Shown here piece by piece: positions 238 through 6,865 of a stretch of 46,940 nt of DNA. Source of the DNA: Myxococcales bacterium (lineage in GTDB: Bacteria; Myxococcota_A; Polyangia; Polyangiales; Houyiibacteriaceae); assembly GCA_019637115.1 (NCBI GenBank), contig JAHBWH010000052.1:1-46940 (forward strand). The letters are read 5' to 3'. The notes below the pieces were generated by a model that was not told the DNA's origin, searched no databases, and was given only the letters and a program-made list of their open reading frames with translations. Both the position numbers and the translations under genes were made by a program. Position 1 is the stretch's first letter. Each line of letters starts with the position of its first letter.

Positions 238-1152
238 ATGTTCGAGTCGCTCCCCAAGTCGGTCTCGGTCTACGAGGTCTCTCCCCGCGACGGCTTACAG
301 AACGAAGCCGCCCAGGTCGCGACGCACGCCAAGGTGCGCCTGATCGAGGCGCTCGTGGCGGCCGGCCTCGAGCGCATCGAGGTCACGAGCTTCGTCTCGC
401 CGCGCTGGGTTCCGCAGATGGCGGACGGTACCGAGGTTTGCCGGATGCTCGAGCGGCACGAGGGCGTGACTTACTCCGCGCTCGTGCCGAACGCGCGCGG
501 CCTCGAGCGCGCTGCGGAGGCGGGCATCGACGAGGTCGCGGTCTTCTTGAGCGCCTCGGAGACGCACAACCGCAAGAACGTGAACAAGACCATCGCGCAG
601 ACGCTGAAGGCCTTCGAGCCCGTCATCTCCCCAGCCGTGGCGCGCGGGATGAAAGTGCGCGGATACGTCTCGACCCTCTGGGGGTGTCCCTACGAGGGCG
701 AGGTCGACCCCGCGCGCGGGCTCGCGATCGCCGAGCAGCTCGTGGAGGCCGGCTGCTACCAGGTATCGCTCGGGGACACCATCGGCGTGGGCACCCCGGT
801 GCAGACCGGTCGCATCCTCGAGCTCTTCCTGCGGCGGTTTCGGCCCGAGCAGATCGCGCTCCACCTGCACGACACGCGCGGCACCGCGCTGGCCAACGTC
901 CTCGTCGGCCTCCAGCTCGGCGTCACGACCTTCGACGCCTCGGTCGGCGGCCTCGGCGGCTGCCCCTACGCGCCGGGCGCGGCGGGCAACCTCGCCACGG
1001 AGGACCTCGTCTACGCGCTGCAAGGGATGGGGATCGAGACGGGCATCGATCTCGAGCGGCTCTGGCAAGCCGGGCAGGTCGCCGAGGCGGTCGTAGGCCG
1101 CGAGCTGCCAGGCAAGGTCCACCAGGCGGGCGTGCGTAGCCTCGCGGGCTGA
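238..1152 (+). CDS. mvaB: hydroxymethylglutaryl-CoA lyase
   Basis: Cleaves HMG-CoA to acetoacetate and acetyl-CoA, the last step of leucine breakdown; cytoplasmic TIM-barrel enzyme. The N-terminus carries the family motif SPRDGLQNE (Arg17, Asp18), followed by TSFVSPRWVPQMAD. HLHDTRGTALAN supplies metal-binding histidines, and the C-terminal signature GGLGGCPYAPGAAGN holds the active-site Cys242. The length of 304 residues is usual for bacterial HMG-CoA lyases. ATG at 238 is chosen; an in-frame TTG at 229 would add three residues. No other leucine-degradation gene is adjacent, and a repeat array starts about 40 bases after the stop. Confidence 0.93.
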   Translation: MFESLPKSVSVYEVSPRDGLQNEAAQVATHAKVRLIEALVAAGLERIEVTSFVSPRWVPQMADGTEVCRMLERHEGVTYSALVPNARGLERAAEAGIDEVAVFLSASETHNRKNVNKTIAQTLKAFEPVISPAVARGMKVRGYVSTLWGCPYEGEVDPARGLAIAEQLVEAGCYQVSLGDTIGVGTPVQTGRILELFLRRFRPEQIALHLHDTRGTALANVLVGLQLGVTTFDASVGGLGGCPYAPGAAGNLATEDLVYALQGMGIETGIDLERLWQAGQVAEAVVGRELPGKVHQAGVRSLAG

Positions 1153-1191
1153 GGTTCCGCGGACCGGGCTCGAGGCGTTCGCGGGCGCGCC

Positions 1192-1660
1192 GCGGTTGGG
1201 GTTGGTAGGCAGCCGCACCTTCCGGGTCCGGGGCCGCGACGGGGACCGGGACCGCGGCCGCGGTTGGGTTCGCCGTCGTACCCGCAAGCGAAGCGTTCCC
1301 GTGGCGTGTCGTGTTGGGGTCCCGGCGCGCGCGTACCCGTGGGCGAGGCGTTCGCGTGACTCGTCGTGATTGGGGATGGTTGGCAGCCACACCTTCCGGG
1401 GCCGGGGCCGCGACGGGGACCGGGACCGCGGCCGCGGTGGGGTTCCAACGCTGTCGTACCCGCGGGTGACGCGTTCGCGTGGCGTGTCGCGGTCGCGGTT
1501 CCGATGGTGTCGTGCCCGGAGGTGGCGGCGTTGGCGTGGCTCGTCGTGGTTGGGGTTGGATGGCAGCCGCACCTTCCGGGGCCGGGGCCGCGACGGGGAC
1601 CGGGACCGCGGCCGCGGTGGGGTTCCGACGCTGTCGAACCCGCGCATGCCCGCGAGCAAT
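1192..1660 (+). repeat. GC-rich repeat array, three units (forward arm)
   Basis: Three copies of a long unit start near 1192, 1370 and 1551, spaced about 175-180 bp. Each has a TTGGGG lead, the block CCTTCCGGGGCCGGGGCC, a 12-bp palindrome CCGCGGCCGCGG, then a more variable stretch with GTACCCGCGGG-like and GGCGTGTCG-like pieces. Each contains four G-runs at 1224-1250, 1398-1424 and 1578-1604, which fit a canonical G-quadruplex pattern on the plus strand. Reverse-orientation copies lie beyond the next gene. The rest of the gap 1153-1755 holds no gene that I can support. Confidence 0.9.
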
Positions 1661-1755
1661 GATGGCCGCGCTCTCGTCTCGGTGCGCGGCGAGACTGCAC
1701 GCAGCCGGTGGTCCAACGCTCGCGGCGTGCGCAACGTGCGCCGCACCGCCCGCGC

Positions 1756-2106
1756 TCAGCGGCGGCCCGCGAGCCGGTAGGCCATCGCGCAGACGCGGTC
1801 GACGAGCGCGAGCGCCGCGTCCGCGCGCGCCGCGTCGACGAAGCGCAGGTCCCGCACGATGCGCAGCGCCGCTTGCGTCTCGTACGCCGAGCCGAGCGCG
1901 ACCGCGAAGTGCGACCGACGCCGACCGTCGTCGCGCGCGTACCCGCGCGCCTCGCTGAGGTTCAGCACGACGCTCATCGCCGCGCGCCGCAGCTGGTCCG
2001 CCAGCGCGCGGTCCCTCGACGCGAGCCGCGGCAGCAGCGGTCCGAGAAGTGCGACCAGCTCATGGGAGACTTCGAGGGCGTGGAGGGGGTGACGGGGCGT
2101 GGTCAT
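1756..2106 (-). CDS. four-helix bundle protein (S23/IVP family)
   Basis: A 116-residue, helical, soluble protein. Its core (residues 40-90) reads RRAAMSVVLNLSEARG, then RRRSHFAVALGSAYETQAAL. This matches the family pattern of an A-x-S-x-x-x-N-I/L-x-E-G-like helix followed by a GSAYE helix. The family includes proteins encoded in 23S rRNA intervening sequences and the Avd accessory protein of diversity-generating retroelements; chromosomal members mostly have no assigned role, and they form pentameric barrels. The ATG at 2106 places the start just before the first helix. The reading frame stays open far upstream, but only through repeat DNA. The gene sits alone between two repeat arrays in opposite orientation. 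Confidence 0.8.
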   Translation of the reverse strand: MTTPRHPLHALEVSHELVALLGPLLPRLASRDRALADQLRRAAMSVVLNLSEARGYARDDGRRRSHFAVALGSAYETQAALRIVRDLRFVDAARADAALALVDRVCAMAYRLAGRR

Positions 2107-2379
2107 GCCCCACCACGCGAAAGAGGCGTGACAGCCGGAGAGCAGACGAAGCGAGCAAATCAGCCGGCTGGCGCGACTCTTTCGCCCCCCGGGCTGACCA
2201 CGCCCCGGCACCCCCGGAGCGCCCGGCGTCTCAACCCCAGCGACCCCTCTTCGCCGAGCCAGCCCCACCTCTCGACCCCGACCACCCACCTCAACGACCA
2301 CGGAGAAAGCGCGTAAGTCCATCCCGCCGCACGAGCACCCACCGCGCACCCCGCCACCACGACAGCCCACCATCGCCAG

Positions 2380-2860
2380 GTACGACTGCGACGGAACCCC
2401 AAACGACCACACGCCACGCGAACGCCGCGCCCGCGGGTACGACAGCGTTGGAACCCCACCGCGGCCGCGGTCCCGGCCCCCGTCGCGGCCCCGGCCCCGG
2501 AAGGTGCGACCGCCATCCAACCCCCAACCACGACGAGCAACGCGAACGTCGCCACCACCGGGTACGACAGCGATAGAGCCCCCACCACACCCCACGCGAA
2601 CGCCGGACCCACGGGTATGACCGCGTCGGAACCCAACCGCGGCCGCGGTCCCGGTCCCCGTCGCGGCCCCGGCCCCGGAAGGTGCGACCGCCATCCAACC
2701 CCAACCACGACGAGCAACGCGAACGTCGCAACCACCGGGTACGACAGCGTCGGAACCCAACCGCAGCCGCGGTCCCGGTCCCCGTCGCGGCCCCGGAAGG
2801 TGCGACCGCCCCCCAACCTCAACCACCACACGCCACGCGAGCGACGCCACCACCCGGAAC
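2380..2860 (-). repeat. GC-rich repeat array, three units (reverse arm)
   Basis: Three reverse-complement copies of the unit seen at 1192-1660. Their C-runs are at 2472-2498, 2650-2676 and 2774-2794, spaced 178 and 124 bp. The last copy has lost one GGCCGG piece and so has only three G-runs on the minus strand. The first two fit a G-quadruplex on the minus strand. The gap 2107-3029 otherwise shows only repeat-derived or unassigned GC-rich sequence, including 2107-2380 and 2860-3029. Confidence 0.88.
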
Positions 2861-3029
2861 CCCAACCACGACACGACGCGCGAACGCCCCACCCACGGGG
2901 ACGACAGACGGATTCCATCCCCCGACCGCACAAGGCGCACCCGCACGTTCGACAGCGCGAAGCTGCCTCCAGCCCGGTAGGGGCGCCCGCCAACTTGCGA
3001 TCGCCCCGCCAAACCCGTACGCCCCGGCC

Positions 3030-5219
3030 GTGCATCCCGCACGCCCGCGCGCCCCACTCCAGCCCTGTCCCGCCTGCGGTCGTCCGACTGACTCGCTGCG
3101 GGCCGCGCGCGTGCTCATGCTCGACGACGGGCCGCGTTACCTCTGCAGCGCCGCGTGTGGTGACGCCTTCCGCCGCGGGCACCGCCCGCACGAGTCGAAG
3201 CCGCCGCCGCCGGCGCGCGTCCGCAGCGTGCCCGAGCGCGTGCGCGACGCCACGCGCCCGAGCATCGACCTCTCGGCGATCTCCGCCGAGAGCTCGGCCA
3301 TCGGCCGCCTCGTCGCGGCAACCCCCCCGACCCCCTTCCCGGCTCTCGGCCTCGGCGCGGCGGCCCTCGCGTTCGTGCTCGCGACGCTGGGTGCGGCCCT
3401 CCCCGCCGCCGTCGCGAGCGTCGGCATGACCGCCGTGGCGGCGGGCCTCGCGCTGGCGCAGGGTCGCTCGATTCGCCGCGAGGTGGGCGTCATCCCGTGG
3501 CTCGTCGGTCCCCTCGGCGCAGTCCTCGCGGCCATCGCCGGGCTCGCCGCCCGCCTCGACGACCCTGCGCGGTGGTTGCCGCTCGCGGGCGGCGCCGTCG
3601 CCGCCGCCGCGATGCTCGTCCGCTCGTGGCTCGACGCGCGCGCGAACGAGCCCGTCGCCGCGCTCGTCGCCCGGTTGCTGGCTCCCCTCCCGAGGCGGCT
3701 GCGCGTGCCGGCCGAGGTGGCCGAGGGCGACGTCCGCTACGAGGAGGTCCCCGCGTCGCGCGTCCGCACCGGCGAGGAGATCCTGGTCGTCGAGGGCGAG
3801 GTGGTCGGCGTCGACGCGCTGGTCGACGGCGGGGAGGCGTGGATCCTCCCGCACGCGGGCGCACAGGCCCCCATCCGTCGGCGCCCTGGCGACCCCGTGC
3901 TCGCGGGCGCGCGCATCACGGAGGGCGCCCTCCGCCTCCTCGTCACGCGCGTCGGCGCTGAGCGCGCGCTCGCGCGGGTCGGCCGCTTTGGAGCCGCGAG
4001 CCCCGCGCGCATCGTCCGAATCGCCGCCCGCATCGTCCGATGGGGCGGCGTCCTCGCGCTCGTGGCCTCCGCGAGCGGGCTCGCCCTCGCGGGCGATCCA
4101 GGCGTCGCAGGGAGCCTCTCCGCAGCCGCCGCGGTCCTCATCGCCGCGCCGCTGCTCAGCGCGCGCCGAGCCGCCGAGGCGCCGCTCGTCGCCGCGGCGG
4201 CGGCAGGCGCGTCGCGCGGGATCGTCTACCGCGACGGCCGCGCGCTGGAAGACGCCGGTCGCGTCGGCACGGTCGCCATCGCGACCTCCGGGACGGTCAC
4301 GGAAGGACGCCCCGAGCTCATCGAGGTCCACGTCCTCGGCGGCGGGGACGAGGACGCGCTCGTCGCCGACGCGGCCGCCGCGGAGGCGGCCGTCGAGGCC
4401 CACCCCATCGGCGGCGCGATCCGGCGCTACGCCAAGCAGCATCGCCTCGCGGTCGGCGCGGTGCGCCGCGCGCAGCTCGAGCCCGGGCGCGGCGTGACGG
4501 CGACGACGAGCCGAGGTGACGCGCTCGTGCTCGGCAACCGCCAGCTCCTGCTCGACCACGGCGTGAGCATCGCGGTCGCCGACGCCGAGGCGACGCGCGC
4601 CGAGGACCGCGGCATGACCGCGCTCTTCCTCGGGCTCGCCGGCCGCGTCCGCGCCGTGCTCGTGTTGCGCGACGAGGTGCGCGTCGGCTCGCGCGCGGCG
4701 GTGCAGCGCTTCTTCGATCAGCGCCTCGTCGTCGTGCTGATGAGCGGGGACCATCGCGGCACCGCCGAGGCCATCGGCCGGCAGCTCGACGTCGCGCTCG
4801 TGAAGGCGGAGCTCCCCCCCGACGAGCGGGGCGAGGAGGTGAAGCGGCTCGCGGTCGCGAGCGGCGTGGTGGCCGCCATCGGCCGCTTGGGCGATGACGA
4901 CGCGATCCTGCGCGCCGCAGATCTGCCGGTGGTGCTGGACGCGGCCGGCAGCCCGCAGGTGGACCGAGGGGTCACGCTCGCCACCGACGACCTGCGCGAC
5001 GCCGCCGCCGCGCTGTGGATCGCCCAAGCGGCGCGCGCGGAGTCGCTGCGCGGCGTCTTCCTGGCGGTCGGGCTCGGCGCGCCCGCGCTCTTCGGGGCCG
5101 CGTTCGGCTGGATCCCGCCCGCCGCCGCCGCCCTCGTCGCCGTCACCCTCGACGCGATCGTGCTCCCGGCGGGGATGCGGCTCCTCCGCCGCATCGAGCT
5201 GCGCGTCCCAACGCGCTGA
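3030..5219 (+). CDS. catalytically degenerate P1B-type ATPase-like membrane protein
   Basis: 729 residues laid out like a heavy-metal P-type ATPase but with the catalytic motifs replaced. Residues 10-50 form a Cys-rich CPACG...CSAAC unit resembling a TRASH/YHS metal site. Four membrane segments, an actuator-like domain, two segments, a P/N-like cytoplasmic domain and two final segments follow. The phosphorylation motif DKTGT reads ATSGT at 418-422, so the Asp is gone. The membrane CPC reads APL, the actuator TGES region reads PHAG, and GDGxNDxP reads GRLGDDDA at 618-625. MSGDHRGTAEAIGRQL at 571 and an HP motif survive. Pumping by the usual cycle therefore looks impossible, and a binding or regulatory role is inferred. 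GTG 3030 is the only sensible start after the repeats. Confidence 0.8.
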   Translation: MHPARPRAPLQPCPACGRPTDSLRAARVLMLDDGPRYLCSAACGDAFRRGHRPHESKPPPPARVRSVPERVRDATRPSIDLSAISAESSAIGRLVAATPPTPFPALGLGAAALAFVLATLGAALPAAVASVGMTAVAAGLALAQGRSIRREVGVIPWLVGPLGAVLAAIAGLAARLDDPARWLPLAGGAVAAAAMLVRSWLDARANEPVAALVARLLAPLPRRLRVPAEVAEGDVRYEEVPASRVRTGEEILVVEGEVVGVDALVDGGEAWILPHAGAQAPIRRRPGDPVLAGARITEGALRLLVTRVGAERALARVGRFGAASPARIVRIAARIVRWGGVLALVASASGLALAGDPGVAGSLSAAAAVLIAAPLLSARRAAEAPLVAAAAAGASRGIVYRDGRALEDAGRVGTVAIATSGTVTEGRPELIEVHVLGGGDEDALVADAAAAEAAVEAHPIGGAIRRYAKQHRLAVGAVRRAQLEPGRGVTATTSRGDALVLGNRQLLLDHGVSIAVADAEATRAEDRGMTALFLGLAGRVRAVLVLRDEVRVGSRAAVQRFFDQRLVVVLMSGDHRGTAEAIGRQLDVALVKAELPPDERGEEVKRLAVASGVVAAIGRLGDDDAILRAADLPVVLDAAGSPQVDRGVTLATDDLRDAAAALWIAQAARAESLRGVFLAVGLGAPALFGAAFGWIPPAAAALVAVTLDAIVLPAGMRLLRRIELRVPTR

Positions 5220-5232
5220 GCCTCGTCGGGCC

Positions 5233-5298
5233 TCGGACACGCTCTCGGACACGCTCTCGGACACGCTCTCTCGGACACGCTCTCGGACACGCTCTCGG
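5233..5298. repeat. 12-bp minisatellite, 5 units
   Basis: Five copies of TCGGACACGCTC, with a two-base insertion (TC) between units three and four. The reverse complement, GAGCGTGTCCGA, shares the GTGTCCG core with the arrays at 8 and 38353. The array lies between the stop of the ATPase-like gene and argH. Confidence 0.93.
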
Positions 5299-5377
5299 AA
5301 CGGCGCGGAGACGCTCTCCCGAGGCGGGACGACTGTCAGGGAGACGATGGCGAGGTTGCTGCTACCTTCCGCCCGCC

Positions 5378-6865
5378 ATGGCCCGAGACGAACGCCGAGA
5401 CGGAGACACCCCCGACCCCCGAGCCACCCCGCAAGCGACGTGGGGTGGCCGCTTCGAAGAGCCCCTCGACGCCGTCGCGCTGCGCTACAGCGCGTCGGTC
5501 GATGTGGACAAGCGCCTCGCGCCCGAGGACATCCGCGGCTCGCTCGCGCACGTGCGCATGCTCGCGTCCCGCGGCGTGGTGAGCGAGGCCGAGGCCGACA
5601 CGATCGCAAAGGGCCTCGAGACCATCGCGGTCGAGGTCGCCGAGGGCTCGTTCGTCTGGGACGCCGCCCGCGAGGACGTCCACATGAACATCGAGGCGAC
5701 GCTCACCGAGCGCGTCGGCCCTGTCGGCGGCAAGCTCCACACCGCGCGCAGCCGCAACGATCAGGTCGCGACCGACATGCGCCTGTGGACCCGCGAAGCC
5801 TGCCGCGCCACGGCGGCGCGCATCGACCGCTTCCTCGCGGTGCTCGCCGTCCGGGCCGCGAACACCGTGGACGTGCTCCTCCCCGGGTACACGCACCTCC
5901 AGCGCGCGCAGCCCGTCCGGCTCGCCCACCACCTCTTGGCGTGGGCCGAGATGCTCGACCGCGACCGCGGCCGGCTGCTCGACGCCGCGCGCCGGATGAA
6001 CGAGTCCCCGCTCGGCTGCGCCGCCCTCGCGAGCACGACCTTCCCGCTCGACCGCGAGATGAGCGCGCGCGCCCTCGGCTTCGACCGCCCCATGCGCAAC
6101 AGCCTGGACGCGGTCGGCGACCGTGACTTCCTCGTCGAGGCCGTGGCCGCCCTGGCCAACTGCGCCGTGCACCTCTCGCGCATCAGCGAGGAACTCGTGC
6201 TGTGGTCGACCCAGGAGTTCGGCTTCGTGACGATGAGCGACGCCTACACCACGGGCTCGTCGATCATGCCCCAGAAGAAGAACCCCGACATGGCAGAGCT
6301 CGCGCGCGGCAAGACGGGTCGCGTCGTCGGCGACCTCGTGAACCTCTTGGTGATGCTCAAGGGGCTGCCGCTCGCCTACAACCGCGACATGCAGGAGGAC
6401 AAGGCGCCCGTCTTCGACGCCTTCGACACCGTCGACGACACGCTCGACGTGCTCCGCGGGGCCCTCGCGACCGCGCGCTTCGACGCCGCGCGCATGCGCG
6501 CCGCGCTCCGTGACGGCTTCGCCGACGCGACCGAGGTCGCCGACTGGCTCGCCGCGCGCGGCGTGCCCTTCCGCGAGGCCCACCACGTCACCGGACGGCT
6601 CGTCGGTCGGTGCGTCGCCGAGGGCAAGGTCCTCTCGGAGCTGCCGCTCGACGCCTTCCGCGCCGAGCACGAGGCGTTCGACGAGTCGATCTACGCCGCG
6701 CTCGATCTCGAGACGGCCGTCGAGCGCCGCGACCTGCCCGGCGGCCCCGCGAAGGCCCGCGTCCGCGCCGCGATCGCCGAGCTGCGCGAGCGGCTCGACG
6801 CGCGGGGCGTGGACACCGACGCCGTCGCCGCGGCCGACGGCGCCTCCTCCGAAGGGGGCGCGTGA
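5378..6865 (+). CDS. argH: argininosuccinate lyase
   Basis: Splits argininosuccinate into arginine and fumarate, the last step of arginine synthesis; cytoplasmic homotetramer of the fumarase/aspartase superfamily. The protein has 495 residues. TWGGRFEEP near the N-terminus, ARSRNDQVATD in the middle and the signature GSSIMPQKKNPD (Gly293 onward, catalytic serine in the SS pair) are all intact. ATG 5378 starts just before the conserved N-terminus; the frame is open further upstream only through the minisatellite and the preceding gene. Its TGA overlaps the ATG of lysA by one base, so the two are probably translationally coupled. Confidence 0.96.
   Translation: MARDERRDGDTPDPRATPQATWGGRFEEPLDAVALRYSASVDVDKRLAPEDIRGSLAHVRMLASRGVVSEAEADTIAKGLETIAVEVAEGSFVWDAAREDVHMNIEATLTERVGPVGGKLHTARSRNDQVATDMRLWTREACRATAARIDRFLAVLAVRAANTVDVLLPGYTHLQRAQPVRLAHHLLAWAEMLDRDRGRLLDAARRMNESPLGCAALASTTFPLDREMSARALGFDRPMRNSLDAVGDRDFLVEAVAALANCAVHLSRISEELVLWSTQEFGFVTMSDAYTTGSSIMPQKKNPDMAELARGKTGRVVGDLVNLLVMLKGLPLAYNRDMQEDKAPVFDAFDTVDDTLDVLRGALATARFDAARMRAALRDGFADATEVADWLAARGVPFREAHHVTGRLVGRCVAEGKVLSELPLDAFRAEHEAFDESIYAALDLETAVERRDLPGGPAKARVRAAIAELRERLDARGVDTDAVAAADGASSEGGA

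Follow-up and report, generated by a model that had tools for sequence, protein, structure and literature searches.

A Myxococcales S23 gene between inverted tandem arrays as a probable copy of a dispersed mobile element

A gene of the S23 four-helix-bundle family (PF05635) stands between two inverted tandem arrays in a 46,940-nucleotide contig (JAHBWH010000052.1, the whole of which is called the window here) of a Myxococcales bacterium (assembly GCA_019637115.1). Genes of this family occur in 23S rRNA intervening sequences (IVS), whose function and origin are called unclear and whose mobility is only proposed (PMC4990558), and S23 and Avd belong to one four-helix-bundle family (PMC10053308). 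The locus raises the question of what an IVS-like arrangement represents outside rRNA. The explanation that fits best, with a probability of roughly 0.73, is that the window feature is a copy of a mobile element that encodes S23 alone, has inverted tandem arrays as terminal repeats, carries a hairpin and belongs to a dispersed class. The window copy is best read as a large-unit (~178 bp), foldback-like variant of this class; the units of its relatives are short, often 6-7 bp. Contigs, genomes and loci are designated C, G and L.

Anatomy of the window element

The initial annotation described three forward and three reverse units of one repeat around a 116-residue S23 gene, and both arrays were recovered. 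They are slightly longer than first given, and the third reverse unit is shortened. The parts of the element are as follows.

1171..1660, plus strand: left arm, a forward array of three ~178-bp units that contain sub-repeats of ~57 bp and a GC-rich core (BLAST and Tandem Repeats Finder, TRF)
1756..2106, minus strand: S23 four-helix-bundle gene (PF05635), 116 aa, stop codon counted in
2085..2105, minus strand: 3' outer arm of the hairpin, overlapping the start codon (ATG 2106-2104) and codons 2-8
2117..2185, minus strand: inner part of the hairpin, a loop and a helix of arms 2164-2185 and 2117-2138, the sequence of which is conserved, GGCGAAA..TCGCGCCAGC / GGCTGTCACGCC..TTTCGC
2195..2215, minus strand: 5' outer arm of the hairpin, pairing with 2085-2105 with one mismatch
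2216..2356, minus strand: leader from the right array to the hairpin, kept in the C413 copy (query 1-417 at 96%)
2357..2907, minus strand: right arm, reverse units of the left-arm array (two full, one shortened)

The forward unit cores lie at 1162-1290, 1336-1464 and 1516-1644 with spacings of 174 and 180. Two reverse cores lie at 2406-2524 and 2584-2702 (spacing 178), and the third, shortened one at 2708-2826 (spacing 124). TRF assigned the array a period of 180 with 2.7 copies at 85% match, and the two arms are 85-95% identical (157 nt at 85%, 146 nt at 90% and 116 nt at 92%). The gene product matched PF05635 with E = 1.3e-13 and 51.5 bits against a cut-off of 33.8, which makes it a member of the family as originally called. 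The S23 family profile also found an S23 pentamer of Xanthomonas, XCC0516 (PDB 2gsc), with E = 9.5e-8.

Folding of the minus-strand transcript of the element (1737 nt) gave -1342 kcal/mol compared to -1005 ± 11 kcal/mol for six dinucleotide shuffles. The difference is 337 kcal/mol, and 382 bases of one array are paired with the other. Array-array pairing in this transcript is far beyond chance. Arms of ~490 and ~550 nt pair with the S23 gene between them, so that it lies, like that of an IVS, in the loop of a stem; no rRNA match was detected at window positions 1000-3100 and no Rfam family scored above its gathering score at the locus. The reading of the locus as an IVS-like layout outside rRNA was supported.

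The element is IVS-like in anatomy and foldback-like in its ends, and it fails the definition of an IVS because it is not in rRNA. The 23S IVS with an S23 reading frame (Coxiella, Leptospira) likewise hold a single S23 in the loop of an inverted-repeat stem. They differ from the window element in their location and in that its arms are long tandem arrays, and from S23 elements in general in that the latter have many copies per genome and, in Myxococcota, a separate start-codon hairpin. The Foldback (FB) transposons of Drosophila have long terminal inverted repeats composed of tandem sub-repeats and a short middle part. The array-built inverted ends of the window element resemble these, whereas its bacterial host, its S23 gene and the lack of any sequence relation set it apart.

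The best-conserved part of the element is a hairpin at the start codon (2085-2215) that was absent from the initial annotation. This 131-nt structure lies immediately upstream of S23, and its 3' arm contains the start codon and the first codons. The stretch around it folds with -100.9 kcal/mol (z = -5.7), and no shuffle was equally stable. The hairpin of the window copy was aligned with those of 10 relatives from the source genome, G001 and G011. Sixteen pairs were double-changed (compensated) overall; in the outer stem both sides had changed in 13 of 21 pairs and a single side in none, while in the inner helix the sequence itself is conserved. Paired cells made up 93.9% of the alignment compared to 79.8% after shuffling and 33-48% in slid controls. 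A covariance model located more copies in G007 and G003, which were outside the training set, and most of these adjoin S23. A stem scoring ≥16 was present within 200 nt upstream in 75 of 83 S23 genes and in 0 of 72 control stretches. The 83 genes came from loci in GTDB genomes, nearly all Myxococcota, that are partly shared with the 38-genome survey described below (65 loci overlap its genomes, and the hairpin counts of the two sets therefore lack independence). No hairpin was found upstream of the solo S23 genes of L068-L073, which have high scores typical of the Pfam family.

A reading of the hairpin purely as RNA was not sustained. The stem mismatches comprised 9 G.T and 40 A.C, in samples that are phylogenetically non-independent; G.T is not enriched, there is no sign of sense-strand wobble tolerance, and sense-strand RNA folding is therefore not clearly selected. 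A role at the DNA level or on the antisense strand is possible. At L084:1495-2102 (G012), two divergent S23 genes are joined by a ~70-nt stem to form a long near-palindrome.

Dispersal and empty sites in Myxococcota

Seven S23 hits were found in the source genome. Family A comprises the window copy (C383), C413 and C168, each with the hairpin between a forward and a reverse array of ~178-bp units. Family B (C15, C335, C24 and C432) has a stem of different sequence that is equally complementary and is set in hexamer (GTCCGN) arrays. The flanks of the family A copies are unrelated save for short weak matches (about 70-110 nt), so the window copy has two sister copies with unrelated flanks. All three complete array elements of the genome contain S23, and a fourth array reaches an S23 hairpin at the end of contig C146. 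The draft assembly is broken at the 178-bp arrays, and 13 further contig ends lie inside an array, 13/13 of them oriented inward to the missing centre. The initial annotation asked whether other arrays flank genes of this family, and this was the case; units scattered without a tie to the family were looked for and were not the pattern seen.

C413 and C168 have a ~95-nt palindromic insert at the same S23 codon, and this shared nested insert indicates that both descend from one copied unit. An insert of this kind (GGTTCGAAGCGGAATCATGCAC...GGTCCGCCTTGGCGGACCCTAGAC) splits S23 at one codon in three copies (L032:4899-4996, L032:7504-7596 and L033 at about 5819-5901), and pieces of ~84 nt resembling it recur at several sites in G001. 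The insert is probably a dispersed miniature inverted-repeat transposable element (MITE) or a repeat of the repetitive extragenic palindromic (REP) type. The region between two S23 fragments at L032:5430-7420 looks by eye like that of an IS21-type transposase, which suggests insertion and duplication within an S23 element.

PF05635 genes were present in 26 of 38 related genomes with up to 31 copies each, many of them in convergent pairs with 20-130 bp between the genes or at the ends of contigs. The array units in these relatives have species-specific sequences and are mostly 6-7 bp. Tandem repeats covered 21% of the sequence within 600 bp of S23 compared to 1.2% farther away in a first locus set, and 14.8% compared to 0.08% in a second, contrasts that are partly inflated because the backgrounds are mostly coding and the loci share ancestry. 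A rule by which single S23 genes have inverted arrays and convergent pairs direct ones was suggestive in G010 and does not hold for G000 family B, G026 and L109. In the window, 12-bp tandem arrays without S23 lie at 6-96 and 5232-5318 (CCGGGGCCGTGT; CTCGGACACGCT). The neighbours of the element are, by our own reading, an HMG-CoA-lyase-like gene and a P-type-ATPase-like gene, and the array at 5232-5318 lies between the ATPase-like gene and an argininosuccinate-lyase-like gene.

Empty sites were identified at two Myxococcota loci. At L099 in G002, two convergent genes are separated by an array-S23 pair-array unit; in about ten sister species the two almost touch. At the L100 site, the convergent stop codons are 13 bp apart in G013, the flanks of which are 86-90% identical; G043 has a ~70-bp hexamer array only, and the spacing in G002 is 1160 bp. 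The array-free ancestral sites at L099, L100 and in the cyanobacterial plasmids described below contradict insertion solely into pre-existing arrays. On contig C40 of G013 (the L099 site, empty in most species; L138:1340-1510) there are short hexamers and another intergenic repeat that shares the outer CAGTGTGATCTA end of the element.

S23 elements in cyanobacterial plasmids and other phyla

A plasmid search with the window S23 protein as query gave no match, and a search of viral contigs found none. Sixteen plasmid S23 loci were analysed, 15 from cyanobacteria and one from Bacteroidota. These S23 genes usually lie between inverted heptamers such as CAGGAGT/ACTCCTG, AGGAGAT/ATCTCCT and AGTAGGG/CCCTACT. 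Inverted flank similarity had a mean z of 3.2-4.2 around plasmid S23 compared to 0.3-1.0 for neighbouring genes, and 8-9 of the 16 loci were singly significant at p ≤ 0.02 compared to 3-4 of 35 controls; some controls have these arrays too. The array arm adjoining plasmid S23 often contains an AGGAG-like ribosome-binding site that arm pairing would hide, as the Myxococcota hairpin may do. Two single S23 genes also lie between inverted heptamer arrays in L239, an AT-rich bacterial genome of uncertain phylum. An S23 gene framed by inverted tandem arrays recurs in several unrelated bacterial phyla.

Plasmid S23 genes sit in narrow gaps within operons, among them cas10|cmr3, cas6|cas4 (in two species) and nrdB|nrdA. 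Those inside CRISPR operons (L268, L280 and L275) are at type I-D cas6|cas4 in Pseudanabaena and Anabaena and at type III-B cas10|cmr3 in Picosynechococcus PCC 7003; the last insertion is absent from Picosynechococcus PCC 7002. Near-identical plasmids without the S23 element provide empty sites. In a Trb operon (about 97% identity) the empty sequence AAAGTAATTAAC becomes AAAGTAAT-element-GTAATTAAC with a 5-bp duplication, and TTCTA is duplicated at an insertion in a Nostoc operon; the 5-bp target duplications of the two cyanobacterial insertions are GTAAT and TTCTA. A second site in the Nostoc operon holds a different S23 element, and neither plasmid has an element at the site occupied in the other. 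A Nostoc C052 plasmid (L287:1150-1290) has a decayed S23 element, consisting of a heptamer array and an S23 fragment, at the Trb site; the element of Trichormus at this site is intact.

For the class, these data establish multi-copy dispersal at unrelated sites, precise empty sites between genes, both in sister species and in plasmids, a target duplication of 5 bp at two insertions, and in Myxococcota a conserved hairpin covering the ribosome-binding site or start codon. Mobility of the S23-array class is well supported. Of the features of terminal-inverted-repeat (TIR) transposons, dispersal and empty sites are seen for the class and dispersal alone for the 178-bp-array variant; a transposase was not identified, and S23 is the sole gene encoded.

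Competing explanations and a proposed mechanism

Several results weigh against a mobile element at the window locus. Neither the window copy nor any other 178-bp-array copy yielded an empty site or a target duplication; the empty sites that the initial annotation asked about were obtained for the class in Myxococcota and cyanobacterial plasmids and not for the window copy. Neither an empty site nor strain variation can be shown for this copy because its flanks are not syntenic in relatives, including the only congener; the flanks of the window copy and C168 are on separate contigs or rearranged in G001, G007 and others. In C413 and C168 the nested insert disrupts S23, and the C168 copy is located in noisy assembly sequence. 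The link between 178-bp and 6-7-bp arrays lies in the shared gene, hairpin and position and not in sequence. Array orientation is non-uniform, with direct arrays in G000 family B and most convergent pairs, and arrays without S23 are frequent in related genomes, from which it follows that arrays can exist and grow independently. No mobilising enzyme was found, and reverse transcriptase (RVT_1) and Y1 transposase genes are each missing from several S23-carrying genomes. The initial proposal of a non-autonomous mobile or RNA-folding element holds as to mobility of the class, and its term non-autonomous stays an inference from the missing enzyme.

Arrays that expand in intergenic gaps could carry S23 as a passenger block that spreads by homologous recombination only, with no role for S23 in movement. 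Bare arrays at many loci, S23-free genomes included, fit this explanation, as do the array-only state of G043 at the L100 site and an array polarity relative to the element that is fixed on both sides (in genus g2, 38:0 and 24:3 for the two gene types). It is contradicted by array-free ancestral sites (13 bp in G013 and abutting genes in many species), by cyanobacterial insertions that duplicate 5 bp and enter operon gaps without arrays, and by the inability of inverted arrays to serve as simple direct homology, and we consider it improbable. There is a slim chance that S23 is an autoregulated RNA-binding gene of the host and that the hairpin and arrays are immobile control or terminator structures. 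A start codon buried in a conserved hairpin could control a host gene in this way, but such a locus is already strained by the empty sites and does not account for multi-copy dispersal or broken copies in the same genome.

The common fold and family of S23 and Avd (PMC10053308) and two RVT_1 genes in G000 would agree with S23 acting as an Avd-like partner of a trans-acting reverse transcriptase, as in diversity-generating retroelements. This is less probable still, since G005, G011, G017 and G018 have 15, 9, 8 and 9 S23 hits and no RVT_1 match, and the loci read showed no pair of template and variable repeats; S23 elements share a family with Avd and differ in that they need no genomic reverse transcriptase. 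G035, a single contig of the same order, has 14 reverse transcriptase matches. Movement in trans by an IS200/IS605-type Y1 transposase acting on hairpins, suggested by hairpins near the ends and by Y1 genes in many of the related genomes, is the least probable explanation given that no Y1 gene was found in G000, G002 or G035, each with several to many S23 genes, and that the cyanobacterial insertions have 5-bp duplications, whereas Y1 elements are not known to make a target duplication. Neither candidate enzyme tracks S23 copy number, and both were rejected.

For an S23-only mobile element with array ends, the following mechanism is proposed. Many insertion sequences (IS) keep translation from read-in transcripts low by means of a hairpin that hides the translation start. 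In transcripts entering from outside, the hairpin and paired arrays of the S23 element would similarly hold S23 translation low. The S23 pentamer may bind the folded hairpin or the ends, as RNA or single-stranded DNA, and bound S23 could then recruit a trans-acting enzyme. Where the flanking arrays are direct, recombination between them could leave a bare array, while inverted arrays would not be removable in this way and would remain as a foldback-like structure at which assemblies break. The element resembles MITEs and IS elements in its inverted ends, target duplication and, in the case of IS elements, a hairpin over the translation start, and differs in having no transposase and ends made of simple-repeat arrays.

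Short repeats of this kind have been described before. In Coxiella IVS, heptamer repeats that vary between strains lie immediately before the start of S23 (PMC4990558), X. campestris has 70 inverted pairs of heptamer arrays, and the heptamer repeats of Xanthomonas and Nostoc were reported as generally not tied to mobile elements (PMC4692102). The heptamers of Nostoc, Calothrix (short tandemly repeated repetitive sequences, STRR) and Xanthomonas are, like the arrays described here, short and intergenic and often form inverted pairs, and such arrays flank S23 in cyanobacterial plasmids; the difference lies in their general description without a mobile-element association (PMC4692102). A description of S23 elements with tandem-array ends was not found in open-licence papers. 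The chances are about even that S23 genes mark a widespread, undescribed mobile class that ends in inverted tandem arrays with units of 6-7 bp or larger, and that the 23S IVS and the cyanobacterial and xanthomonad heptamers are its insertions and relics.

The role of S23 and of the 23S intervening sequence, and whether the latter has moved in the past, has been an open question for >25 years (PMC4990558), and bacterial heptamer repeats are likewise unexplained (PMC4692102). The empty sites, target duplications and start hairpin allow both questions to be tested in plasmids and in strains that can be cultured. If the explanation is true, the S23 element would be a transposable element without a recognisable transposase that uses simple tandem arrays as its ends.
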